A DNA stretch of 35,952 nt from Spirochaetales bacterium (GTDB lineage: Bacteria > Spirochaetota > Spirochaetia > Treponematales > Treponemataceae): the NCBI GenBank assembly GCA_003246335.1, contig QKAR01000127.1, positions 1-35,952 on the forward strand. The letters are read 5' to 3'. The notes under the pieces were generated by a model that was given only the letters and a program-made list of their open reading frames with translations, had not been told where the DNA came from and did not search any database. Of the stretch, positions 6,588 to 30,903 are shown piece after piece. Positions within the stretch are counted from its first letter, which is position 1. The number at the start of each line of letters is the position of its first letter. A program made the position numbers and the translations under genes.

Positions 6588-8287
6588 ATGAAAAAAGTGA
6601 TTCTTGCGACGTGCGCGATCGTGGGACTGTGGCTTTGTGCCGCTGGCGTCGGTTTTGCGGAAGACCGAACGGTCATCATTCTCAATTTTTCGAGCGAAAC
6701 GGGCGATGAGTCGGTCGCCGCAATGGCGGCAACCGCCCAGGGTATTCTCAGCCGGGGAATACGCTATATCGGGGAGTTTGAGGTCGTTCCGGCGCCCTCG
6801 TTTAAAATCGGTACCGACCTCGCGAGCCTGAGAGAATTCGCCAATTTAACGAATTGCGAGTACGTCATATTCGGGACGCTGACGCCGGGAAAAAACGGTT
6901 CGGTCAAAATCGCGAACGACCTTTATTCGCGCGCGGACGATTCCATCAGCGAAACCGTGGAAACGGCGGAAAGCGCGCTTGACGTTTTTTCCGCCTCGGA
7001 CGCCATTTCCGTAAAAGTGCTGTCTGAACTGCACAAGAAAAAAATTTCCTACGGAACGCTTACTCTCGCGACTACCGGGGAACGAGCCGATTTCGACGTA
7101 TACGTGAACGCGTTCTCGCCGCCTCGAACGTATCCGAGATATCGAGCATCCCCGACGGTGAAAAACAAGTACGCGTGGTCGCCCGTTCCGGCAGAAACGC
7201 GGGTAGGGTGCTTTTTAGCGACGCCGTCGTCATCAAGCCGAACGACTCAACGCCCATCAAGATAGGATTTGAGGACTTCGCCGCGCGCGTGGCGGGTCGA
7301 AAAGATAAGGGTTTATTGACCATTACGAGCGATCCGGCCGGAATGACCGTGGTGGTCGACGACGGAACTCCGGCGGAAACGCCGATCACGCTCGAGCTCG
7401 AGCCGGGAACCCACAAGTTTCAGCCGATCGAGACGCTCATCGTAGGGTCCGACCGATACTACGCGGGCCAGCCGATTCAATGGGTCATCGTTCCCGCCGG
7501 GGACGAGGCCGTCATCCCCATTAAGCTTGAAACGCTCGCCAGTACGCTCGATTATTCCTTAATCCCGAGCGACTGCGCAATCACGCTTGACGGCGCGGCC
7601 CTTCCGCGCGGCCCCGATAAAAAAACCGTCGACGTTGCCGCGGGCTATCATTCCCTGCAGGTTACGCGCGGCGGCTCGTCGATCGTCATGAGTTCCATCC
7701 GGACGAGACCCAACGCGATTACCGCGGTGTCGTGGGGCTACTTACCCGAAACGGCCTATGAAGTGGAGGAGCGCCAAATTTCGTTCAAGGCAAACTCGCG
7801 TTCTTGGGACGATATACAACCCGTCTTGGAAACGGGGTACCCTCGGTTTTTAGGGAACTACGACAATTATTCGATAAAATCGGTTAAATTCGCGCGGAAC
7901 AAGAAATATTTCTACTGGCATATCGAGTTTGCCGACACGAATCCCCTGTATTCGTTGCCGCCCGACTCGGGCGGTAAAATGACCGTACAGCTCGACATTG
8001 AGCGGGCGAAAAATGGGATCGCTAACCTAAATCTTGGTCTGGAGTCGGAAATGAACCGATCAAGCGGGTTTTAGGATTGGACCGCGCAAAAGTGGACTCC
8101 CGTCGATATGCTGTTGACCCGCGTGTCGACGAAAAACAGCCTGACGGGGCGCATCGCGCTCTCTGGCTTAAAAAAATATCTTTCCGGTTCCTATGAAACG
8201 CACATCCAGGTAGCCACGAAAGACTGGCAGCCTTACTACGATCAAAAAGTTGGATGGATCGATTTCGGTTTCCTGACGAAACAGTAA
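6588..8287 (+). pseudogene. PEGA-domain exported protein, broken by a frameshift and a stop
   Basis: The ATG at 6588 (AGGGAG upstream) opens a protein with a signal peptide (about residues 1-24, ending GVGFAED). Near 7109-7112 one base is missing: the frame changes where VYVNGVLAASN would be restored by an added G, and then runs on through 7175-8071. PEGA-like repeats follow (TITSDPAGMTVVVDDG; a second around ALPRGPDKKTVDV). An in-frame TAG at 8072-8074 interrupts a frame that continues DWTAQKWTPVDMLL and ends in TAA at 8285-8287. TAG serves as the ordinary stop of the cytidylate-kinase-like gene and pcnB here, so recoding is unlikely. PEGA proteins are usually envelope proteins. Sequencing error could explain either lesion. 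Confidence 0.8.
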
Positions 8288-8305
8288 ATCCCGCGCGTAA
8301 AGGAG

Positions 8306-8334
8306 CCGACGCCGTATTCTCCCGCCGGCGTCGG
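8306..8334 (+). terminator. Perfect 9-bp hairpin after the PEGA pseudogene
   Basis: CCGACGCCG (8306-8314) pairs with CGGCGTCGG (8326-8334) around an 11-base loop, 18 bases after the TAA at 8287. No T-run follows, so it is not a classical intrinsic terminator; it may stabilise a 3' end or work with Rho. Confidence 0.4.
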
Positions 8335-8346
8335 ACAACCCTCCGA

Positions 8347-8377
8347 TTGACAAAGAAGCCCGACTTGGAAATACTAC
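8347..8377 (+). promoter_or_regulatory. Putative promoter of the amino-acid ABC transporter operon
   Basis: TTGACA at 8347-8352 and TACTAC at 8372-8377 with a 19-base spacer lie about 47 bases before the lipoprotein ATG. The box arrangement and flanks resemble the 6498-6527 promoter. Confidence 0.45.
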
Positions 8378-8423
8378 TGCGTTAACAATAGTGCTCATGC
8401 TTTTTTTTGTTGGAGGAAAAAAG

Positions 8424-9188
8424 ATGAAAAAAACAGTAGCCGCCGTGTTGGCGGTAACCGCGCTCGCGATCGCCTTCGTTGGTTGCAGCAAGAAGGAAAG
8501 CGCCGCTGACGCTAAAACCTGGATTATCGCCACGGACACCGTGTTCCGCCCGTTCGAGTACACGAACGCGAACAACGAGTTCGTCGGCATCGACGTGGAT
8601 ATTCTCGCCGCCATCGCCAAAGATCAGGGTTTCAAGTACGACCTGCAGTCCCTCGGTTGGGACGCGGGCGTAGCCGCCGTGCAGGCCGGTCAGGCCGACG
8701 CGCTCATCGCCGGAGCGACCATCAAGCAGTCACGCATCGATTCCGGCTGGATTTTCTCGGACGGATACTACAACGCGACCCAGACCTTCGTCGTCGGCAA
8801 GGATAGCGCGATCGCTTCCTACGCCGACCTCAAGGGCAAGAACGTCGCGGTGAAGAACGGCACCGCCGGCGCGGACTTCGCGAACAGCCTCAAGGACACC
8901 TACGGATTCACCGTCACCGTGTTCGAGGATTCCCCCACGATGTACCAGGACGTCGTCCTCGGTAACAGCGCCGCCTGCGTCGAGGACACCCCGATCATGG
9001 CCGCGAGCATCAAGGAAGGCGCTCTCGCCCTCCAGATTCCCGCCGGGATGGAAAGCGAGGGAGCTCCCTACGGCTTCGCGATCATGAATACCGCGAACCA
9101 GAAGCTCCTCGACATGTTCAACGCCGGACTCGCGAACATTAAGGCGTCGGGCGAGTATCAGACGATTCTCGACAAATACCTCAAGTAA
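8424..9188 (+). CDS. Polar amino-acid ABC transporter, substrate-binding lipoprotein
   Basis: A 254-residue periplasmic-type binding protein of the PF00497 (His/Gln/Arg/cystine) family. The N-terminus is a lipoprotein signal with the lipobox FVGC (Cys21), so it is probably lipid-anchored outside the inner membrane. Family features include FRPFEYTNANNEFVGIDVDI near the N-terminus and the AVKNGTAGADFANSL hinge region. ATG 8424 is chosen because GGAGG at 8412-8416 lies 7 bases upstream and the lipobox spacing fits; an earlier in-frame ATG at 8391 would spoil the signal peptide. Permease and ATPase genes follow after a terminator. The amino acid carried cannot be told. Confidence 0.93.
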   Translation: MKKTVAAVLAVTALAIAFVGCSKKESAADAKTWIIATDTVFRPFEYTNANNEFVGIDVDILAAIAKDQGFKYDLQSLGWDAGVAAVQAGQADALIAGATIKQSRIDSGWIFSDGYYNATQTFVVGKDSAIASYADLKGKNVAVKNGTAGADFANSLKDTYGFTVTVFEDSPTMYQDVVLGNSAACVEDTPIMAASIKEGALALQIPAGMESEGAPYGFAIMNTANQKLLDMFNAGLANIKASGEYQTILDKYLK

Positions 9189-22601: not shown

Positions 22602-23081
22602 ATGAGAGCGACCGTTTGCCAGCAAATTTTTCGTTTGCTTCATAACCCGATTTTCCTTGCCGCGATATCCAGTTGGGTTATCAGTCAATTCATTAAAACG
22701 ATCATCACGCTGTTGACGTCGCGCGCGACCTCGTTTCGCGGCCTCATCGAGTTGCTTTTTTGGCGAACCGGCGGCATGCCGTCGAGCCATTCGGCCCTGG
22801 TCTCGTCGGTTGCGACCACCATTGGCTTTCGACACGGCGTTTCTTCCGATTTTTTCGTGTTTTCGTGCTGCTTTGCCCTCATCGTTATTCGCGATTCGGT
22901 CGGCGTGCGCAGATCGAGCGGTCAGCAAGCGAAAGCCCTCAACGAACTGGGAATGAAAGTCGCGTCGCGGCTCAAATATCAATTTAAACCGGTGAAGGAA
23001 ATCCAGGGACATCGTCCGATGGAAGTGTTAGTCGGCATTCTCCTGGGTTTTTTTATCGGCGTCGCCGTCTCGACGCTGTAA
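22602..23081 (+). CDS. Divergent PAP2-family (DUF212) membrane protein
   Basis: A 159-residue integral membrane protein of the divergent PAP2 family (YuiD-like). The signature is GGMPSSHSALVSS near residues 60-75, then RDSVGVRRSSGQQAKALNE and GHRPMEVLVGILLG. It has about four membrane segments. The family is related to lipid-phosphate phosphatases but its activity is not established. There is no clear ribosome-binding site before ATG 22602. The next gene begins 9 bases later, and this may be the first gene of the rnf transcript. Confidence 0.88.
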   Translation: MRATVCQQIFRLLHNPIFLAAISSWVISQFIKTIITLLTSRATSFRGLIELLFWRTGGMPSSHSALVSSVATTIGFRHGVSSDFFVFSCCFALIVIRDSVGVRRSSGQQAKALNELGMKVASRLKYQFKPVKEIQGHRPMEVLVGILLGFFIGVAVSTL

Positions 23082-23090
23082 TTCGACGCT

Positions 23091-24473
23091 ATGACGCGCT
23101 TATTCGCGAAAGCCGCGTTTCGACGCGCGCTTGCCGCCGTTGCGTGCCTATCGTCACTCGCCATTCTTTTTTCCTTTCCCGAGCGTTCCGCGAATCCCCT
23201 GTGGAAAGGGTATCGCGTTTTAGTCGCCTCTCTCGATCTGCCCGAACAAAACGTCCTCGACCGGCTCACCGCCGCGGGAGTGAGCCAAATCGTCTCCCAA
23301 TCCAATTCGCTCGTCGTAAATGACGGCAAAATGGCGCCCGTTTTGCCGTTTTTAGCGAAAAAAAACGATACCATTCGCGTATGGTTTGAAAACGCGCGGG
23401 ATAACTACCGATATTTTTTTTTGGGAGAATCGCCGTTCCTGGACGCGCGGGTTACGAAAGCGCTCGAGTCTGAAAAAGAGCCGTGGGCGCTTGAACGTTC
23501 GGAAAGCGTTCATATAATACCGGTCAGCCTCGTCGCGGCATTACTGCTCGCCGGCGTCGTCGCGGTAAACGGGTCGGCGATCGGAGCCGTCGCGGGACTG
23601 CCGTTCGTCCTGTATTCCCTTTCCAGCAATCGCTTCCCGAGCTATATCGCGGCTCTTTTCGCCGTGCTTGCCGTGCTTTCCTTCGCGAATCTTCTTGAGC
23701 CGGCCAACGAGGGCCTCCGGGCCGACCTGAGACTCCTTCGCCTCAGAAAAAACCCTTTTTCGTTCGTTCCCGTCGCGCTCTCGCTTATCGCGGCCGGATT
23801 CTCGGGACCCCACGCCCTGTCCCTTTTCGCGGCCGCGGCGATTTCCGCCGGGGCGTTCGCTTTTTTTTCGATCGACGCCCTCGCTTTTTTTCGGCGTTTT
23901 CGCGACGCCCGGCGGCTCCATCCCCGATTTAAATCCTATCCCATGCATCCCCAAACCGTCTCGAAATCGTGGCCCCCGCGGCGCGCGCTCGCGTGCGCGC
24001 TTTCCGTTCCCGCGTTCGCGGTCGCGGGCTTTTTCCTCTTCGGTTCGGTTTCCGCCACCGCTACGGGCGCGCCGTTCGGCGACCAATTCGCGGCGGTGTA
24101 CATTCCTTCGCCGACCGGGTATACTGCGGGCGTCGGTTTCGGCGCGGACGACTACGAGGAATTCGTCCGTTCGCGCGAAAATCCCGAATATCCCGATCTC
24201 GCGTGGTTTTTGGCGCTTCGATGGAACGTCGAAACCGCGCCGTGGAGGCGCGCGGGCGTGCCGATCACCGACCCGGCGATCGGCGATAAAACGGTCGTGA
24301 CGCAATACGCGATGGACGACGCCGGGAGAATTACCCCGAGAGCCGACGCGATCAAAACGTTTGACGCGGCTTTTTTCCGCGAGACGCTTTCTTCCGATTT
24401 AACTCCCCTGGAGCGCATGCTAGCCGCCCAGGGCCGTTTTTGTTCCGTTTCGCTGAGGAGCTTCGCACGATGA
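23091..24473 (+). CDS. Unknown membrane protein coupled to rnfC
   Basis: I do not recognise this 460-residue protein. It has an N-terminal membrane anchor (about 12-28), a soluble part to about 140 containing LDLPEQNVLDRLTAAGVSQI, then about six hydrophobic segments between 142 and 320, and a soluble C-terminal part of about 130 residues. No metal or nucleotide motif is evident. Its TGA overlaps the rnfC ATG (ATGA) and it starts 9 bases after the DUF212 gene, so it is translated with the rnf genes. It could be an extra subunit or assembly factor of the unusual Rnf complex. That role is inferred from position only. Confidence 0.7.
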   Translation: MTRLFAKAAFRRALAAVACLSSLAILFSFPERSANPLWKGYRVLVASLDLPEQNVLDRLTAAGVSQIVSQSNSLVVNDGKMAPVLPFLAKKNDTIRVWFENARDNYRYFFLGESPFLDARVTKALESEKEPWALERSESVHIIPVSLVAALLLAGVVAVNGSAIGAVAGLPFVLYSLSSNRFPSYIAALFAVLAVLSFANLLEPANEGLRADLRLLRLRKNPFSFVPVALSLIAAGFSGPHALSLFAAAAISAGAFAFFSIDALAFFRRFRDARRLHPRFKSYPMHPQTVSKSWPPRRALACALSVPAFAVAGFFLFGSVSATATGAPFGDQFAAVYIPSPTGYTAGVGFGADDYEEFVRSRENPEYPDLAWFLALRWNVETAPWRRAGVPITDPAIGDKTVVTQYAMDDAGRITPRADAIKTFDAAFFRETLSSDLTPLERMLAAQGRFCSVSLRSFAR

Positions 24474-25777
24474 CGAACTATATTCGATTCGCGAAGGGTT
24501 TTGAGTCTATAAAAATTGACTCAAGCCCGCTTTCATTGGCAGGCAACGCTTTTTTGCCCCCCACGGCCCTCATTCCGCTTCGTCAACACGCCGGAGAAGA
24601 CGCGAACCTCATCGTGCAATCCGGCGAACGGGTGCGCGAAGGCCAACTAATCGCCCGGTCGACCTCGGATCGGGCGGCCAACGTCCATGCTTCAATCCCG
24701 GGAATAGTCGATTCGTTTCGGGAAGTGCCCATGCCGGACGGTTCCTTGCAAATTTCCGCCGTCATAAAGCTCTCTGGGGCCTTCGACTTGCTCGGTAAGC
24801 GCGAAAGCGCCTATCCGTGGCAAAACGTACCCGAATCTGAACTTTTGCGGGTTATTGAGGACAAAGGTTGCGTAAACTCCTTTTCCGATCCCGTTCCGCT
24901 GGGTCCCCAGCTCCGCAACGCGAAAAGAAACGCCCGATGCACGGTGACCCTGCGGCTTTTCGACGCCGACCCGACGTGCCGCATCGACTCAACCCTCTAT
25001 CGCTCGTTTCCCGATATCATACTCTCCGGCGCGGCAATCATCGCCCGCAGCGTCGACGCGCGGTGCGTCTATCTCGCCCATACGGAAAAACGAACGGCGA
25101 TCGAGGCGCTCAAACTCGACCAAATATTCAACGGCCGCCCGGCGCTTCCGGTCCGTAGCCCCAATCGTTATCCTTCAGGCAATGAAAGAAGAATACGCGC
25201 CCTCGTGTCGGGCATGGAGGATTCGAAGGGCGACGGAGAGACGACCATCCTCGTCGACGTGACTACCGCGCTCAGCGCCTACGACGCCGTCGTGCGGAAC
25301 CTTCCCTGCGTTACCCGTTTCGTCGAGGTTTGCGGGCCGGCCATCGATAGCCCCAAAATACTGAAAGTTCGCGTCGGCACGCCGATCGGCGACGTCATCG
25401 AGGAGTGCGGCGGCTTTAAGGTAGATCCCGCGCGTATCGTGGTAAACGGGCTCCTCGCGGGCCAGGCCGTTTACGATCTCGACACGCCGATCACGAAATA
25501 CGCGAAATCCCTGCACCTCATGGACCGCGACGCCTGCCCGCCGTACACGGTACGCGAGTGCGCGCATTGCGGCCGCTGCCTGCAGGTTTGTCCCGCTAAA
25601 ATCGATCCCCAACGCGTCGTCGCCAGCATAAAGGCCGCCCGAGCTTCCGAAAAGCTCGCCAAGTCGATTTCGGCTTGCCAGTACTGCGGTTGCTGCGCGA
25701 TCGTCTGTCCCTCGCGCATACCCTTGCATCAAATCATAAAAGAGGCGCATAGCCGACTTACGGAGGATCGCACATGA
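24470..25777 (+). CDS. rnfC: RnfC-like subunit lacking the FMN/NADH motif
   Basis: A 435-residue RnfC homologue and the peripheral electron-input subunit in known Rnf. The N-terminal barrel-sandwich part (NVHASIPGIVDSF) and two C-terminal 4Fe-4S motifs are intact: CAHCGRCLQVC (C364, C367, C370, C374) and CQYCGCCAIVC (C403, C406, C409, C413). The expected Gly-rich GxGGAGFPT loop is replaced by GCVNSFSDPVPLGPQ (about 133-147), and the NxAECEPY motif by LRLFDADPT. NYPSG-type sequence (NRYPSGNERR) survives. The ATG has GAGGAG upstream. Binding of NADH and FMN as in classical RnfC is therefore doubtful. Next is rnfD with an ATGA overlap. Confidence 0.85.
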   Translation: MTNYIRFAKGFESIKIDSSPLSLAGNAFLPPTALIPLRQHAGEDANLIVQSGERVREGQLIARSTSDRAANVHASIPGIVDSFREVPMPDGSLQISAVIKLSGAFDLLGKRESAYPWQNVPESELLRVIEDKGCVNSFSDPVPLGPQLRNAKRNARCTVTLRLFDADPTCRIDSTLYRSFPDIILSGAAIIARSVDARCVYLAHTEKRTAIEALKLDQIFNGRPALPVRSPNRYPSGNERRIRALVSGMEDSKGDGETTILVDVTTALSAYDAVVRNLPCVTRFVEVCGPAIDSPKILKVRVGTPIGDVIEECGGFKVDPARIVVNGLLAGQAVYDLDTPITKYAKSLHLMDRDACPPYTVRECAHCGRCLQVCPAKIDPQRVVASIKAARASEKLAKSISACQYCGCCAIVCPSRIPLHQIIKEAHSRLTEDRT

Positions 25778-26802
25778 AGACTACCTCATGGATCGTGTCG
25801 CCCGCGCCGTTCATTTTGTCCCGGCCGACGGTATCCCGCATGTCCGTCATCACGCTCGCCACGCTGACGCCGATTCTCGCCATGCTTGCCGTCGCGAAGG
25901 ATTACGCGGCTCTCCTCACCGTCGCGGCAAGCCTAGCCGGTTGCCTCGCGGCGGAGGCGGCAGGCTCCTACTTTCGCGGGAAAAACACGTTCGGTGACGG
26001 AACCGCGATTCTCGCCGGCGTTCTCGTGGGACTTTTGCTTCCTTCGGGCATGCGGGTATTCGTGTCGTTCGCGGCGGCGTTTACCGGATTTTTTATCGCG
26101 CGAGTCGCCTTCGGCGGACTCGGCGCCTATTGGATACACCCGGTCGCGGTCTCCGTGTGCGTCGCCTACGTGAGTCAGGCGGCTTTTTTTCCCCCGCCGC
26201 TCATCACGGCCGAGGGTATCCGACAGGCGGGCGACGCGTTCGCCGCCTTAAAGCTCGATAAGTTCGCCCAATTGCCGACCGATCAGGGAATCGCGTCTTT
26301 TTTAAACGCGAACGCGTTCTCTCTTTTCGGCATTCGGCTTCCCGAAGGCTACGTGACGCTCTTATGGAACGCGCCGTCCGCCATTCCCGCGTTTCGCTAT
26401 AACATCCTCGTTTTGTTGGCCTCAATCGTGCTTATCGCGATGGATATCGCCGACTGGATCGTCCCCTCGGCGTTCTTGGTCACGTACGGCGCAAGCGTTT
26501 GGTTTCTCTCTCCGATTCCGTTCGGCGGCGCCCCCGAGGGGGGAAATGTCCTTTTCGCCGTGCTCACCAGCGGCGTGCTTTTTACCGCTTTCTACGTCCT
26601 TTCGGACTTTTCCGCGTCCCCGCGCACGAGAATCGGCAAACTCGTTTCAGGATTCGTCGCGGGATTGGCGGCCTTCGCGATTTGCGGTCCCGGCGGGTCC
26701 TCAATCGGCGCCGCCTTTACGGTTATCGTGACGAACGCGGTTAATCCCGTCATTGAGTACGCGGAAAATCGGGCTATCGCGTCCGCGGAGGATATCGCAT
26801 GA
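25774..26802 (+). CDS. rnfD: RnfD-like membrane subunit, flavin Thr replaced by Ser
   Basis: A 342-residue integral membrane homologue of RnfD with about eight to ten spans. It matches at FGDGTAILAGVLVGLLLP, FGGLG (but YWIHPVAVS where NPFNPAM is usual), FYVLSDFSASPRTRIG and the C-terminal IVTNAVNPVIEY. In known RnfD, FMN is joined by a phosphoester to Thr in an SGATPL/SQATPL motif. Here the matching stretch is QGIASFLNA, with S175 at the Thr position and Phe for Pro. Covalent flavin is thus uncertain. The ATG overlaps the rnfC stop and the TGA overlaps the rnfG start. Confidence 0.85.
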   Translation: MKTTSWIVSPAPFILSRPTVSRMSVITLATLTPILAMLAVAKDYAALLTVAASLAGCLAAEAAGSYFRGKNTFGDGTAILAGVLVGLLLPSGMRVFVSFAAAFTGFFIARVAFGGLGAYWIHPVAVSVCVAYVSQAAFFPPPLITAEGIRQAGDAFAALKLDKFAQLPTDQGIASFLNANAFSLFGIRLPEGYVTLLWNAPSAIPAFRYNILVLLASIVLIAMDIADWIVPSAFLVTYGASVWFLSPIPFGGAPEGGNVLFAVLTSGVLFTAFYVLSDFSASPRTRIGKLVSGFVAGLAAFAICGPGGSSIGAAFTVIVTNAVNPVIEYAENRAIASAEDIA

Positions 26803-27269
26803 CGGAAGAAACGAAAACGACCCTTAAGCGATCGAGCGTCATCGTCGCGTTTTTTTTCGCCTTTAGCCTGGCGATAGCCGCCATCCATTACAGTACTCAA
26901 GCCAGCGCCGAACGAGCGATCCGTTCCGCCGCGCAAACGACGCTTGCCGCGTGGGCCCAAGAGCCGCCGAAACTCGGCGATCGAGTCGAATTTCCCGGAG
27001 CCGCGCTTTCCTTTCCCTGGGTTTTTGAAAGTCCCGCGGGGAAGGGCCATGTCGGTTACGTTTTCGTCGCTCCCCTCACGGGTAACGCCGGACCGATGTG
27101 CGCGGTATTTTACTTTACCGATATCTCGGGAACGCGTTTTTGCGGTTTCGCCGGAATTTCGGGAGCTGAGACGAATCCCGAGCGATACGGGATTACCTCA
27201 AGGATAATCTCCGCGCAATCGCGGAAAATCGATCAAATCGCGCGAAACGGGGAGGGCGACGGAAAATGA
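26799..27269 (+). CDS. rnfG: Short RnfG-like subunit without flavinylation motif
   Basis: A 156-residue protein with one N-terminal membrane anchor (about 12-30) and part of an FMN-binding domain. GPMCAVFYFTDISGTRFCGF and SGAETNPERYGI line up with the GA..VLV-ETPGLG part of RnfG. Known RnfG proteins (about 190-215 residues) continue to an (S/T)GATxT motif that carries covalent FMN. This protein stops about 20 residues beyond the ETPG region, and the stop overlaps the next start, so no hidden continuation exists. It may serve as a structural subunit. The family call rests on position in the operon and the partial domain. Confidence 0.75.
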   Translation: MTEETKTTLKRSSVIVAFFFAFSLAIAAIHYSTQASAERAIRSAAQTTLAAWAQEPPKLGDRVEFPGAALSFPWVFESPAGKGHVGYVFVAPLTGNAGPMCAVFYFTDISGTRFCGFAGISGAETNPERYGITSRIISAQSRKIDQIARNGEGDGK

Positions 27270-27844
27270 AAAAATATCTGGCGGTTTTGCTTTTCGCCCT
27301 ATGTCCCCTCGTGCCCGCCGCGGCGCGCCTTGCCTACGGAATTGTTCTCGCGGCGGAAACGGCCTGGCTCATCGCCTGCGCGGCGGGGATTCGGGCGATA
27401 ACCCCTAAACTATCGGGAAATCCCGGGCGCTATCTCGCGGTCGCGTTTCTCGCGGCGGCGACGGCCTTGTTTTCGCTCGCGCTGCGCGCGTATTCGCCCA
27501 TTCTCTCGCTTTCGCTGGGCTTTTACGTGTACCTCGCGGCGTTTTCGTGTCTCTTGATGGAAAATGACGTGTTTTTCTCCGGCAGACCCCGCCGGTCCGT
27601 ACCGTCGTGGCCCCTTATTCCAAGCGTTGTAATTTTTTCGGCGATTCGTGAGCTATTGGCGGCGGGTACGCTATCGGTTCCGTTGCCGGAAGGTATCCGT
27701 TTTTTCCCGGTGATCCCCTCGTATGCGAGCTATAGCCTCGGTTTTTGGGGAACTTCGGGAGCGGCTCTCATACTGCTCGGTTTCGTCGCTTGGGCGGCGA
27801 AGTTCGCCCAACGTCGCCTTAACGCGCGAAAAGGAGAAGCGTAA
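27266..27844 (+). CDS. rnfE: RnfE-like membrane subunit
   Basis: A 192-residue protein with about six membrane spans that matches RnfE/RsxE. LLFALCPLVPAA contains C13, matching the LLGLCPLL cysteine; AFSCLLMENDVFF contains C95, matching VTNCIVVGRAEAF; IRELLAAGTL matches the LREIIGNGTL segment. In known complexes these two cysteines, with two from RnfA, hold an Fe-S cluster in the membrane. Both are kept here. It starts by ATGA overlap with rnfG and its TAA shares a base with the rnfA ATG. It is shorter than the usual 200-230 residues at the N-terminus. Confidence 0.82.
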   Translation: MKKYLAVLLFALCPLVPAAARLAYGIVLAAETAWLIACAAGIRAITPKLSGNPGRYLAVAFLAAATALFSLALRAYSPILSLSLGFYVYLAAFSCLLMENDVFFSGRPRRSVPSWPLIPSVVIFSAIRELLAAGTLSVPLPEGIRFFPVIPSYASYSLGFWGTSGAALILLGFVAWAAKFAQRRLNARKGEA

Positions 27845-28407
27845 TGAAGTATTTCGACACGGTATTCGTCTACGTCTTTTCTTGTTCCGCGTTAATGCTC
27901 TATGGAGTCGGATTAGAGCGCGTGTTTTTCGAGAAATCCTTCAATCGCGCGTTCTTGAGCCGAGCCTTCGGTACTCTCGCCGAGACGTTGATTTCCGTCG
28001 CGGCGCTTTGGTTTCCCGTTCGCCTGATCTTAGTTCCCCACGGTCTTGAGGACTTGACGCTTCCTCTCGTAGCCGTGGTGGGCGGCGCCGTGAGCGCGCT
28101 TTCCGTCGCCATCACTCGGCGCCCGGAAAAAGAACCGTTAGGGGAGCTCGCTTTTTATTTTGGCGCCGTGTTTTTATCGCTGTATTTCGCGTCCTCGCTC
28201 GTTGAGGCCCTGCTTATAGCCTTTTCCTCGGTTATTTCGTTCGTCGGGGCGACGTTGTTTCTGCGCGCGATTCGCGACAGAACGGCCGCGGGAAGCCCGC
28301 CCCTCGACCTTCGGGGGACTCCGCTCGTATTGATGAGTTTAGGGCTACTTTTTCTCGCGATGTACGCCGCCGACGCGTCTTGGTGGCTCGGGGAGGTGTT
28401 CCCGTGA
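27844..28407 (+). CDS. rnfA: RnfA-like membrane subunit without cluster cysteines
   Basis: A 187-residue protein with about six spans and homology to RnfA/RsxA, clearest at the C-terminal FLRAIRDRTAAGSPPLDLRG followed by TPLVLMSLGLLFLAMYA. The N-terminal LGLCPFxG motif is replaced by YGVGLERVFF and the TTNC motif by YFASSLVEA. The only cysteine in the protein is C14, outside both sites. The RnfA half of the RnfA/RnfE Fe-S site is therefore missing although RnfE keeps its half. The start shares one base with the rnfE stop (TAATG), and the TGA overlaps the rnfB GTG. Confidence 0.8.
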   Translation: MKYFDTVFVYVFSCSALMLYGVGLERVFFEKSFNRAFLSRAFGTLAETLISVAALWFPVRLILVPHGLEDLTLPLVAVVGGAVSALSVAITRRPEKEPLGELAFYFGAVFLSLYFASSLVEALLIAFSSVISFVGATLFLRAIRDRTAAGSPPLDLRGTPLVLMSLGLLFLAMYAADASWWLGEVFP

Positions 28408-28937
28408 TCGGCGCGCTCATATTCGCCGCGCTCGCGCTCGCCGGCTCGGTACTCGTCACCCTGTTAGGACTTGCATCCGAAACCGCTCGCGTTCGATCGA
28501 TCGACTCGAGCGTAAGCGAAAAACGAGAGTCGAAAAAACCCGCGGAAACCGCGCCGGCGCAGACGATGCGCGCCGAACTGCATTGCGCTTCCTATCCGCC
28601 TCGGGTTCCCGAGCGATTTCGTTCGATCGGCTATACCGATTGCGGCACGTTCAATATGGCGTTCGGCGGCAATTCTTCGTGCTCGTCCGGTTGCGTCGGG
28701 CTGGGTTCGTGCGCGCGGGTGTGCCCCGCCAACGCGATCGCGCTTCATGCCGGCTCGATATCCGTATCGAGTACCTGTACCGGCTGCGGCAAGTGCGTAA
28801 CCGCATGCCCCAAAAACCTCATAGTCCTATCTCCCTGGGATGCTCCCGCCTCGCTCGCTTGCGCGGCGGGGCTGCCGACGGCGAGCGACGATGGCGGCAC
28901 GGCTAACTGTCCCCTCGCGCCGACCGAAGCGCCCTAA
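28404..28937 (+). CDS. rnfB: RnfB-like ferredoxin subunit lacking the first Fe-S domain
   Basis: A 177-residue protein starting at GTG 28404 with GGGAGG at 28391-28396. An N-terminal membrane anchor (about 1-22) is followed by a linker and a ferredoxin domain with two 4Fe-4S motifs: C93, C97, C103, C107 (GCVGLGSCARVC) and C125, C128, C131, C135 (CTGCGKCVTAC). This part resembles the C-terminal half of clostridial RnfB, including YTDC and GG before the cysteines. The usual N-terminal Fe-S domain (LPGxNCGxCGxxGC) between the anchor and this part is absent. It is the last gene of the rnf operon. Confidence 0.85.
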   Translation: MIGALIFAALALAGSVLVTLLGLASETARVRSIDSSVSEKRESKKPAETAPAQTMRAELHCASYPPRVPERFRSIGYTDCGTFNMAFGGNSSCSSGCVGLGSCARVCPANAIALHAGSISVSSTCTGCGKCVTACPKNLIVLSPWDAPASLACAAGLPTASDDGGTANCPLAPTEAP

Positions 28938-28995: not shown

Positions 28996-29016
28996 GTGGA
29001 AAAAGTTGAGGTACGC

Positions 29017-30903
29017 GTGATTACTGGGGCCACTCCGTTGACAATTTGTTTTGGGCTGCATTGTCCTTTTCCCCCCGTCTTCGATCATTTTAAATGCGAG
29101 GACCATTACCAAAAATTCTATAAGCCGCTGCTTTCCGCCCTGTACGCGCTGCCAAAGCTTCCGTTCACCCTTTCGATGACGGGAACGTTCATCGAGTGGA
29201 TTGAGCGGCATCATGCGGAGTATTTCATTATCATCAACGAGATGATCGCGCGGAAGCAGATTGACGTGATCGGCGGCGGTTTTTACGAACCGTTATTCCC
29301 GTTAATCCCGCCGGTCGACCGCGTGGGCCAAATAGAGCTTTTAACGACGGCGATCCGCAAGACCTTCGGGAAGCGCCCGCGCGGGGCTTGGCTTCCCGCG
29401 AGCGCGTGGGATCCCGTGCTGATTTCCTCGCTCACCACCTGCGGTATCGAGTACGTTCTGCTCGATCGCATACTCATTGAGTCGGCGGGGTTCGCCGGGA
29501 TTGACGGCTACGCGCCGGTTACCCTTGAGGACGGCGGTAAAACAGTCGTCGCGCTCCCGCTTGACAATCAATACCGATATCTCGAGCGCTATTCCCCGCA
29601 GTCTTTTTTTGACCAAATGAAGTCGCTCGCCGAAACCGAATCGCCGCGCGCGCTCGCGATTTTCGTCGACTATACGTCCATACCGGCCCTATTCGCGGAC
29701 GGTGACGGAAAACCCCATTGGTTTGAGAGCCTTGTATCGCTTATAGGCGAGGATTCGGGCATCGAGCTTTCGCATACCGCGCGCGCACTGAAGGGTCGAG
29801 GCAACTTTCCCCGAGCCTACGTTTCGCCGGGCATGTCCCCGTTCGACATCGAATGGCCGAGCAACCAGGACGACATACGCCTGCTCTCGCGCATGCCGGT
29901 AAAAAGATTTCTCGTAGACGCGCCGGACATTTTAAATCTGTACGCGAAGATGACGTACGTCCATTCCCTCGTGAACCAGCTGCGCGGCGATCGTTCGCGC
30001 AAGAACAACGCCCGCGAGGAACTGTGGATCTCGCAATATCGCGAGCCTTTCCTGCCGCAGACGAAGGCCGACCCGCAGAGGTTTCGCGCGCTTTTCTCGC
30101 ACGCGTACAAAAACCTCCTCATCGCCGAAAAGACCTCGCGACTCAAGGGAGTTTTTACCCCATCGATCAACGCGCTCGATTTTGACATGGACGGGACGAA
30201 GGAATACCTTTGCCAGCTCGACCGCATCAACGCCTACGTGCACGCGAAAGGCGGCAAAATATTCGAACTCGACGTGCTCGACGTTAACCGCAATTACTGC
30301 GACGTTTCCTGCGAAACGCCCGGTTTTTTTATCGATCATTTCGCCGGCGCGGAAGACGTGGAGCGACTCGCCCAAGACGGGCGGCTGCCGACGCGGCCGG
30401 TTTTCGCCGAGACCCAGTATCAGGAACTTTCGCTCGAGGCTTCCCGCAACGAAGTTCAGCTCAAGGCGAACGGGCTTTTCGGGTCCTTTCAGCAGCCGCT
30501 TTCCCTGCGCAAGCAGTATAACTTCCGAGACGAGGGCATCCAAGTTCAGTGCATCCTCAAAAACGAAAGTCCGCTCAACCTTTCGGGGGCGTTCCTGATC
30601 GAATTCGCGCCGGCGCTCACGCGGGCGCGCGACCGCTTTCCCATTATGTCCGTGTACGCCCACGACGCGCGCCGTGACGGGCCCTTCGAGCGAGTCCAGT
30701 ACGACGACGTCGCCTGGGTCAGGATTAAGGACTCGGTATCCGACGTCACGTTCACGCTTGAGCCGAACGAGAACGCCTCGCTCATCGCCGTTCCGCTCGC
30801 GTGCGGGGGCTATGACACGGCAAAGCTCTATCTTCACTGGAAGGTCGACTTAAGTCCCGGGTTCGAGACCGAGAAGACGGTGTTCCTCAAGATCGACGGC
30901 TGA
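29017..30903 (+). CDS. GH57 glucanotransferase-like protein, catalytic Glu missing
   Basis: A 628-residue protein with the full layout of GH57 4-alpha-glucanotransferases (N-terminal seven-strand barrel, helical bundle, C-terminal beta domain). Motif GGGFYEPLFPLIP (from 86) is intact, and the C-terminal DFDMDGTKEYL and ELDVLDVNRNYCD match the family. The active-site motifs are changed: HNHQP reads GLHCPFPP (H15 kept, second His lost), the WLxERxW nucleophile motif reads GAWLPASAWDP with A128 in place of Glu, and DDGEKFG reads VDYTSIPAL. It is probably not a glycosidase and may bind glucans. GTG 29017 follows TTGAGG; GTG 28996 is possible. Confidence 0.8.
   Translation: MITGATPLTICFGLHCPFPPVFDHFKCEDHYQKFYKPLLSALYALPKLPFTLSMTGTFIEWIERHHAEYFIIINEMIARKQIDVIGGGFYEPLFPLIPPVDRVGQIELLTTAIRKTFGKRPRGAWLPASAWDPVLISSLTTCGIEYVLLDRILIESAGFAGIDGYAPVTLEDGGKTVVALPLDNQYRYLERYSPQSFFDQMKSLAETESPRALAIFVDYTSIPALFADGDGKPHWFESLVSLIGEDSGIELSHTARALKGRGNFPRAYVSPGMSPFDIEWPSNQDDIRLLSRMPVKRFLVDAPDILNLYAKMTYVHSLVNQLRGDRSRKNNAREELWISQYREPFLPQTKADPQRFRALFSHAYKNLLIAEKTSRLKGVFTPSINALDFDMDGTKEYLCQLDRINAYVHAKGGKIFELDVLDVNRNYCDVSCETPGFFIDHFAGAEDVERLAQDGRLPTRPVFAETQYQELSLEASRNEVQLKANGLFGSFQQPLSLRKQYNFRDEGIQVQCILKNESPLNLSGAFLIEFAPALTRARDRFPIMSVYAHDARRDGPFERVQYDDVAWVRIKDSVSDVTFTLEPNENASLIAVPLACGGYDTAKLYLHWKVDLSPGFETEKTVFLKIDG

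Follow-up and report, generated by a model that had tools for sequence, protein, structure and literature searches.

Rnf complexes are defined by a chain of cofactors. In the classical route, as outlined in parts of one account (PMC12174285), electrons pass from RnfB to the [2Fe-2S] cluster of RnfA-E, then to the flavin mononucleotide (FMN) of RnfG, the FMN and riboflavin of RnfD, and the clusters and FMN of RnfC, from which they reach nicotinamide adenine dinucleotide (NAD+). The same parts of that account relate RnfD to ammonium and urea channels and liken RnfA-E to alternating-access carriers. For Treponema pallidum, sections of PMC7512555 model an atypical Rnf pump that relies on flavins and is supplied by flavodoxin, and a passage of PMC11371664 restates this role for tp0151. 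Here, we describe a divergent rnf operon from a 35,952-nucleotide stretch of DNA (the window), which is one contig (QKAR01000127.1, here C67) of a 3.05-Mb, 91% complete assembly of a Spirochaetales bacterium in the family Treponemataceae (GCA_003246335.1). Across this operon and its relatives, the cofactor chain appears to have been dismantled by degrees, and selection has kept the genes together.

Cofactor sites of the divergent operon

The plus strand of the window carries a head-to-tail series of eight genes (Table 1), encoding a DUF212 protein, a membrane protein that we call U460, and RnfC, RnfD, RnfG, RnfE, RnfA and RnfB. The six rnf genes span 24470-28937 and are all intact, with no broken frame; neighbouring rnf genes overlap by four bases, or by one base at the E/A junction. 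A sequence-only reading of this DNA had placed an intact, coupled rnfCDGEAB operon at 22602-28937. Its gene content, order and overlaps held up, but its span did not, as 22602-24473 is occupied by the two non-rnf genes and rnf begins at 24470.

Canonical sites were scored in two sets of loci from the family: 41 divergent ones (the window and L034-L073, picked by score and genus coverage rather than at random) and 11 classical ones (L003 and L074-L083). Two divergent loci (L054 and L071) stop at a contig edge, leaving 39 for RnfG, RnfE, RnfA and RnfB. The GxGGAxFP loop of RnfC, which serves FMN and NADH (reduced NAD+), is present in 11/11 classical and 0/41 divergent loci. The same split was found for the flavinylation threonine of RnfD at its aligned column (11/11 against 0/41; 1/41 in an earlier alignment), and a search anywhere in the divergent RnfD proteins matched S[TSG]AT in one and [ST][GA]AT in two of the 41. 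Where classical RnfD has CIGE[TS], the window has an IPAFRYN motif that is well conserved among the divergent loci (P205 in 38, A206 in 39, F207 in 38, R208 in 39 and N210 in 39 of 41). The [SA]GAT motif of RnfG occurs in all 11 classical loci (10 under a stricter pattern with a preceding acidic residue), and no flavinylation motif was found in the 39 divergent ones.

The cysteines that hold the RnfA-RnfE cluster follow a similar pattern. Both RnfA cysteines are present in 11/11 classical loci and neither in any of the 39 divergent ones, the two positions reading E and A in the window; both RnfE cysteines are likewise found in 11/11 classical loci, with the first kept in 11/39 divergent loci and the second in only one, the window itself. 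Counting all four positions together, 28 divergent loci keep none, ten keep one, and the window keeps two, so that no divergent locus has more than two of the four cysteines of the [2Fe-2S] site. The N-terminal CxxCx4C domain of RnfB was found in 10/10 classical and 0/28 divergent RnfB proteins. These counts bear out the earlier observation that five subunits lack a defining cofactor feature (the RnfC loop, the RnfD threonine, the RnfG SGAT motif, the RnfA cysteines and the RnfB N-terminal domain). The half cluster site that had been described in RnfE is real, both cysteines being there, but it is specific to the window.

RnfB itself is missing from 11/39 divergent loci. Among these are all three that were fetched from the T. 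pallidum-type genus (L050, L051 and L062) and all four from genus g15 (L042 and L044-L046). An open reading frame of L062 first assigned as RnfB turned out to encode an unrelated protein; the count of loci with RnfB is therefore 28/39. Where present, RnfB mostly retains its two 4Fe-4S clusters. In RnfC, each of the eight cysteines of the two 4Fe-4S sites is invariant across the 41 divergent loci, making these clusters the only scored sites retained in every fetched locus of the family. Measured against 23 classical and intact references, RnfC has kept eight of its nine conserved cysteine columns, compared with 26 of its 102 other conserved columns (hypergeometric P 2.9e-4), a selective retention which suggests that the RnfC clusters are under special protection.

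On this sequence evidence, the transmembrane electron path of classical Rnf has very probably been lost in the divergent form of the family. What remains of the route, as judged by sequence, is the RnfC clusters, the RnfB input pair where kept and possibly a riboflavin site in RnfD. The sequence-only reading had also entertained a non-classical electron path. This proposal fared poorly: no new conserved cysteine site was found in RnfA, RnfE or RnfD (the best columns reach 14/39, 11/39 and 19/41, respectively), RnfB is absent from more than a quarter of the loci, and the RnfE half-site is confined to the window.

That these loci encode an ordinary Rnf whose motifs were misread is scarcely credible. 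Six subunits homologous to RnfC, D, G, E, A and B lie in one operon, and window RnfA aligns with classical RnfA by hhalign at 97.8% probability (E 9.8e-13). Window RnfA and RnfG, as a misreading might suggest, find no match to their own Pfam families, and S-x-A-T-like patterns do occur in three divergent RnfD proteins (L038, L049 and L058); these patterns, however, are remote from the flavin site, lying near residues 293, 331 and 72. Profile comparison alone links window RnfG to classical RnfG weakly (20%). Its assignment rests on operon position and on structure rank, the top five Foldseek matches of its predicted structure among 350,542 PDB chains all being RnfG of solved Rnf complexes, each at a weak E of 0.08-0.32. 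Window RnfC scores 219 bits on TIGR01945, under the cut-off of 246, and window RnfC, D, E, A and B all fall below every NCBIfam cut-off listed, whereas RnfC and RnfA of the classical locus L003 exceed theirs. Moreover, intermediate sequences bridge the classical and divergent groups column by column, and this comparison agrees with alignment-independent pattern searches; chance and misalignment were ruled out on these two grounds. The operon is likewise distinct from that of Na+-NQR, in which NqrF stands for RnfB and a cluster-free NqrA for RnfC, as RnfB and a cluster-bearing RnfC are both present.

Table 1. Features of the divergent rnf locus, in window coordinates
Feature	Position	Strand	Evidence or remark
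DUF212/divergent PAP2 protein, encoded at the head of the conserved cluster	22602-23081	+	Pfam PF02681, E 1.1e-42
U460, 460-residue membrane protein: N-terminal helix, mixed domain, helical bundle, second mixed domain	23091-24473	+	
RnfC, NADH/FMN loop gone, two 4Fe-4S sites present	24470-25777	+	PDB 7zc6_C, E 5e-46
Position of the lost GxGGAxFP loop in RnfC (approximate)	24866-24889	+	Comparison with classical RnfC
Eight RnfC cysteines, two CxxCxxCxxxC 4Fe-4S sites, residues 364-413	25559-25708	+	
RnfD without flavinylation threonine	25774-26802	+	PF03116, E 4.5e-43
IPAFRYN motif, RnfD residues 204-210	26383-26403	+	Replaces classical CIGE[TS]
RnfG, shortened, without SGAT, without Pfam FMN_bind match	26799-27269	+	Model pLDDT (predicted local distance difference test) 93.6
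RnfE, C13 at 27302-27304, C95 at 27548-27550	27266-27844	+	PF02508, E 3e-7
RnfA, both cluster cysteines replaced	27844-28407	+	hhalign to classical RnfA
RnfB, GTG start, N-terminal Fe-S domain gone, ferredoxin-like pair present	28404-28937	+	
Eight RnfB cysteines, for the two 4Fe-4S sites that are left	28680-28808	+	

Directly downstream of rnfB lies a family 57 glycosidase gene (28996-30903), and a similar gene is found in 38/41 divergent and 0/11 classical loci. Elsewhere in the family, the gene at the rnfB position of L072 (3761-4261) is without any 4Fe-4S motif and is perhaps an RnfB on its way to loss. In two further stripped operons, an rnf gene appears as two open frames: rnfD of L041 (5980-7007), whose frames overlap and lie in a complete chromosome, and rnfC of L062 (6977-8253, genome G043), whose frames both match RnfC.

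Selection, ancestry and a second rnf locus

The divergent form is a fixture of the family. As a query, window RnfD matches 144 of 145 family genomes; because classical RnfD is matched too, divergent copies were counted by match strength. At a threshold of <1e-30, 136 of the 145 genomes match, and classical copies reach at best ~3e-22 among the matches listed. The T. pallidum-type genome matches at 3e-26 and was confirmed as divergent by its whole operon, while the remaining eight genomes (one without a match) are assemblies <90% complete; the divergent form is thus present in all 106 good genomes of the family. A profile of divergent RnfA gave a concordant picture, matching 93/93 family genomes (92 at <=4e-36 and one contig-end fragment at 7.4e-22), with a best match of 1.1e-21 among 148 other genomes. 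A single decayed locus, which the sequence-only reading had said would be indicated by close relatives with canonical motifs, is ruled out by the 41 family loci that share the same form.

The ratio of nonsynonymous to synonymous substitution (dN/dS, Nei-Gojobori) for the closest pair, L045-L046, is 0.078 in rnfC, 0.104 in rnfD, 0.095 in rnfG, 0.070 in rnfE, 0.155 in rnfA and 0.135 in the U460 gene. In five more distant pairs, for which dS is near-saturated, it ranges over 0.07-0.38 where computable, with a highest value of 0.375. The divergent rnf genes are under purifying selection despite their lost sites, and it is very probable that a remaining function is what selection acts upon. A relic on its way out is very unlikely. 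Divergence is fast (34-56% identity for RnfG and 36-64% for RnfA in the five more distant pairs), rnfB has been lost in several genera, and the split frames of L041 and L062 have the look of decay. Nevertheless, dN/dS stays far below 1 in every computable gene and pair, the operon persists in every good family genome and even in a reduced genome of 1.14 Mb, and the gene overlaps are conserved, with a median gap of -4 at all six junctions.

How the sites were lost can be followed in sister families, where the operon type was recognised by U460 together with RnfC similarity. At the level of the order, 16 loci serve as intermediates (L090-L107 without L098 and L104, which are both classical). L090 had been assigned a false RnfC, so this locus was excluded from the RnfC and RnfD alignments, the tree and the loop count; the RnfC loop is absent in 15/15 order-level loci with a sound call. 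By comparison with the loop, other sites are patchily kept: eight order-level loci have all four RnfA/E cysteines, three have none and the rest one to three, and the N-terminal domain of RnfB is present in 14/15. RnfG reads SGAT in L090, L091, L092 and L107, SGAS in L095, AGAT in L097 and L101 and, by pattern only, AGAS in L094.

At the level of the class, 12 of 20 loci (L108-L127) carry every canonical site scored: L108-L115, L118, L121, L122 and L125. Their RnfG motif is [ST]G[AS][TS], and the column of the RnfD threonine is occupied by serine in L111 and L114. Another locus, L123, has the RnfC loop and the four RnfA/E cysteines, with RnfB not found; L116, which ends at a contig boundary, lacks the loop. 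Five more (L117, L119, L120, L126 and L127) are stripped to varying degrees, and the canonical RnfG motif is absent from all of them. This motif was unscored in L116, in L123 (frame cut by the chosen stretch) and in L124, which gave only U460, RnfC and RnfD and was excluded from the tree.

A FastTree was built from 1158 concatenated columns of RnfC, D, E and A in 67 loci and rooted next to the classical group. It unites the intact loci in one clade with a support of 0.92. The other branch gives off L123, L116, L101 and L117 before the rest of the order (1.00), where the neighbours of families f3 and f4 are f5 and the window's family together. Support is 1.00 for the window's family, which answers the earlier call for a test of whether this form is a conserved clade, and 1.00 for its union with f5; some deeper nodes are weak (0.40, 0.43 and 0.57), and the placement of the long-branched L117 is uncertain. 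We infer that this is an old spirochaetal Rnf operon, U460-rnfCDGEAB, passed on by vertical inheritance. Since distant relatives of the same operon carry the canonical motifs, the loss is lineage-wide.

The series also bears on a modified redox complex, in which RnfB or flavodoxin would feed the RnfC clusters in the cytosol or non-covalent flavins of RnfD, with an acceptor other than NAD+. The RnfC loop is already gone in L091, L092, L096, L097 and L099-L101, all of which keep the four RnfA/E cysteines, suggesting that the acceptor changed before the path went; the invariant RnfC cluster cysteines and the two clusters of most surviving RnfB proteins fit such a complex as well. We nonetheless consider it unlikely, given that 11/39 family loci and, in family f5, L119, L120 and L127 yielded no RnfB, that the RnfB of L072 has no clusters, and that no cysteine column of RnfA, RnfE or RnfD rises above the modest frequencies given earlier.

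The sequence-only reading had advised a search for a second, classical rnf locus in the same genome, and one was indeed found (L003, contig C142), classical in every scored site. Its RnfG (7508-8644) has 378 residues, two SGAT motifs and two FMN_bind matches, and the RnfG frames of L074 and L078 also have two motifs; multi-flavinylated RnfG is described in part of PMC8238504. A classical copy could serve as a backup while the other operon is stripped, yet family f3 includes five genomes with a single RnfD in a stripped or part-stripped operon (G146, G180, G186, G192 and G201; completeness 88-99%, except G192 at 79%), and G163 also has a single RnfD apart from a weak fragment. Among single-RnfD loci of f3, L093 and L095 keep none of the RnfA/E cysteines, L106 keeps one, L107 two and L096 (G146) four. 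Four other f3 genomes (G149, G177, G189 and G221) encode additional RnfD copies and have all four cysteines, the extra RnfD of G189 being of the short type. Together with the T. pallidum-type genome, the single-RnfD genomes of f3 indicate that loss can proceed without a second copy. Many Spirochaetia genomes also encode a further, shorter RnfD/NqrB homologue with a PF03116 match from about position 15 (for example, G316:C1:621587-622477).

The operon of a Treponema pallidum-type genome

One genome of the window's family (G020, locus L051) is a single contig of 1,139,633 bases. It encodes one ApbE, which is identical over 340/340 residues to PDB 4ifu, which we take to be T. pallidum Ftp (TP0796). 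The name TP0796 appears in PMC4767422. The rnfD gene of G020 lies at 173.9-174.9 kb and spans position 174174, where a tp0151 variant has been placed (PMC7162541). G020 is thus apparently T. pallidum, and its stripped operon apparently the published tp0151 operon.

The operon of L051 consists of DUF212, rnfC, rnfD, rnfG, rnfE and rnfA. U460 and RnfB are absent: fewer than 80 bases separate the rnfC and DUF212 reading frames, and a search of G020 with the divergent RnfB profile gave no match. A Pfam Rnf-Nqr search of the genome was also empty, although divergent RnfA and RnfE are themselves too distant for this Pfam family. G020 holds a single RnfD, and L051 groups with the family in the tree. 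Its RnfC keeps both clusters; in RnfA and RnfE, the four cysteines are replaced by D, G, G and R. Two FMN_bind proteins are encoded outside the rnf operon (C1:622681-622899 and 192278-192514) and are candidate ApbE targets. With both FMN_bind proteins outside the operon and a single ApbE, the flavin transferase of G020 presumably serves something other than RnfG.

The primary proposal of an Rnf-type pump in T. pallidum is reportedly that of Deka in 2015 (mBio). As read from its sequence, the complex lacks the sites that a flavodoxin:NAD+ ion pump requires, which calls the published role into question. Among the titles and abstracts found in the open-access literature searched, none reported a stripped Rnf of T. 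pallidum or other treponemes. The treponeme complex probably does a job different from the electron-driven ion pumping assigned to it, a point that bears directly on the model, set out in sections of PMC7512555, of a flavin-based Rnf pump supplying extra energy to T. pallidum. More speculatively, the syphilis spirochaete could depend on a converted, electronless Rnf machine while having no working Rnf at all; we hold this possibility, which belongs to the idea of a whole-order conversion discussed below, with less than even confidence.

Function of the stripped complex and comparison with known systems

U460 was detected by a hidden Markov model in 39/41 divergent and 0/11 classical loci, the exceptions being L051, from which it is absent, and L063, which ends at a contig edge. 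No Pfam match was found in 16/16 members and no NCBIfam match for the window copy. The predicted model of U460 (pLDDT 87.4) has no PDB fold match at E<=0.001, its best weak matches being RND/MmpL transporters (E 0.02, TM-score 0.2). U460 adjoins all 12 intact class-level operons; its presence beside a complete Rnf points to a probable accessory role in the ancestral complex and not to a substitute for electron transfer. A DUF212 relative occurs in 40/41 divergent loci and beside three of the 12 intact operons (L111, L112 and L115), so U460 may be the older partner.

The constant company of U460, in the family and beside intact operons alike, would suit a structural or assembly scaffold, in which the complex transports nothing and serves to anchor U460 and DUF212, or some other machine of the envelope. 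There is a precedent in NqrA, a cofactor-free RnfC homologue with a possibly structural role, as described in parts of PMC12174285. The T. pallidum-type locus, however, has no U460 and still keeps RnfC, D, G, E and A, and a pure scaffold strikes us as improbable, more so than the modified redox complex.

The best explanation at present, which we favour with confidence just short of even, is that the Rnf scaffold has been retained to serve a function that involves no electron transfer across the membrane. Of the two options left by the sequence-only reading, an Rnf relative that has given up electron transfer and kept another role is the one upheld by the family-wide conservation, the purifying selection and the graded relatives. 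On this view, a core of RnfD, RnfE, RnfA and RnfG would still assemble with RnfC and, if they are present, RnfB and U460, and would move no electrons across the membrane. In the mechanism that we prefer, the core would act, through the transporter-like folds of RnfD and RnfA-E, as a conduit for an ion or solute or as a regulated carrier, and the RnfC clusters, with RnfB where kept, would report the cytosolic redox or iron state to it. Such a cluster-controlled conduit or carrier is a tentative proposal by analogy, drawn from the kinship of RnfD with channels and the likeness of RnfA-E to carriers. We rank it ahead of a direct RnfB-RnfC exchange and place the pure scaffold last. Somewhat less tentatively, though still with doubt, a pump may have been converted stepwise, over the whole order, into an electronless complex that is still required and in which the RnfC clusters serve as sensor or gate.

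Several points weigh against a complex without electron transfer, or against the path by which we suppose it arose. RnfA and RnfE keep only 1/55 and 3/64 of their conserved columns, so the loss of their cysteines is part of a wholesale divergence of both membrane subunits. Non-covalent flavins, including the riboflavin of RnfD, may persist as far as sequence can tell, and the persistence of RnfB in 28/39 loci, mostly with its two clusters, is a hint that delivery of electrons may retain some importance. The neighbourhood of the locus names no substrate or ion, and U460 is explained by neither a fold match nor a family. At the scale of the class, only one RnfC is encoded in 11/12 genomes whose operons are intact, whereas G151, G154, G162, G338 and G147, with stripped operons, carry two or three; a second rnf copy is not strictly needed for loss, but may favour it.

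Compared with classical Rnf (PDB 7zc6, 8ahx and 9eri), the divergent form has the same six genes in the same order, homologous subunits and the two 4Fe-4S clusters of RnfC. Unlike classical Rnf, it is without the NADH/FMN loop of RnfC, the covalent flavins of RnfD and RnfG, the RnfA cysteines and the N-terminal cluster of RnfB, and it adds U460 and usually DUF212. The nearest complete form found is the intact U460-rnfCDGEAB operon of other Spirochaetia families, which is of the same operon type and carries all canonical sites scored, whereas the divergent form does not. Treated as a natural experiment, the family could reveal what the RnfA-E-D core is capable of in the absence of electrons.

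The T. pallidum 'noncanonical RNF-type redox system' of PMC7512555 is apparently the same operon; the model in the sections of that source considered here is a flavin-based flavodoxin:NAD+ ion pump, whereas the sequence keeps only the RnfC clusters among the scored sites. NqrA of Na+-NQR, according to parts of PMC12174285, is an RnfC homologue that has lost its cofactors and still belongs to its complex. Na+-NQR, however, retains a transmembrane path, whereas the divergent Rnf appears to have lost the path and keeps its RnfC clusters. Two-subunit Nqr/Rnf-like complexes, as portrayed in part of PMC11334425, likewise lack the threonine for the covalent flavin of RnfD/NqrB; in these, one subunit has an NAD-binding domain and the other is a relative of NqrC/RnfG.

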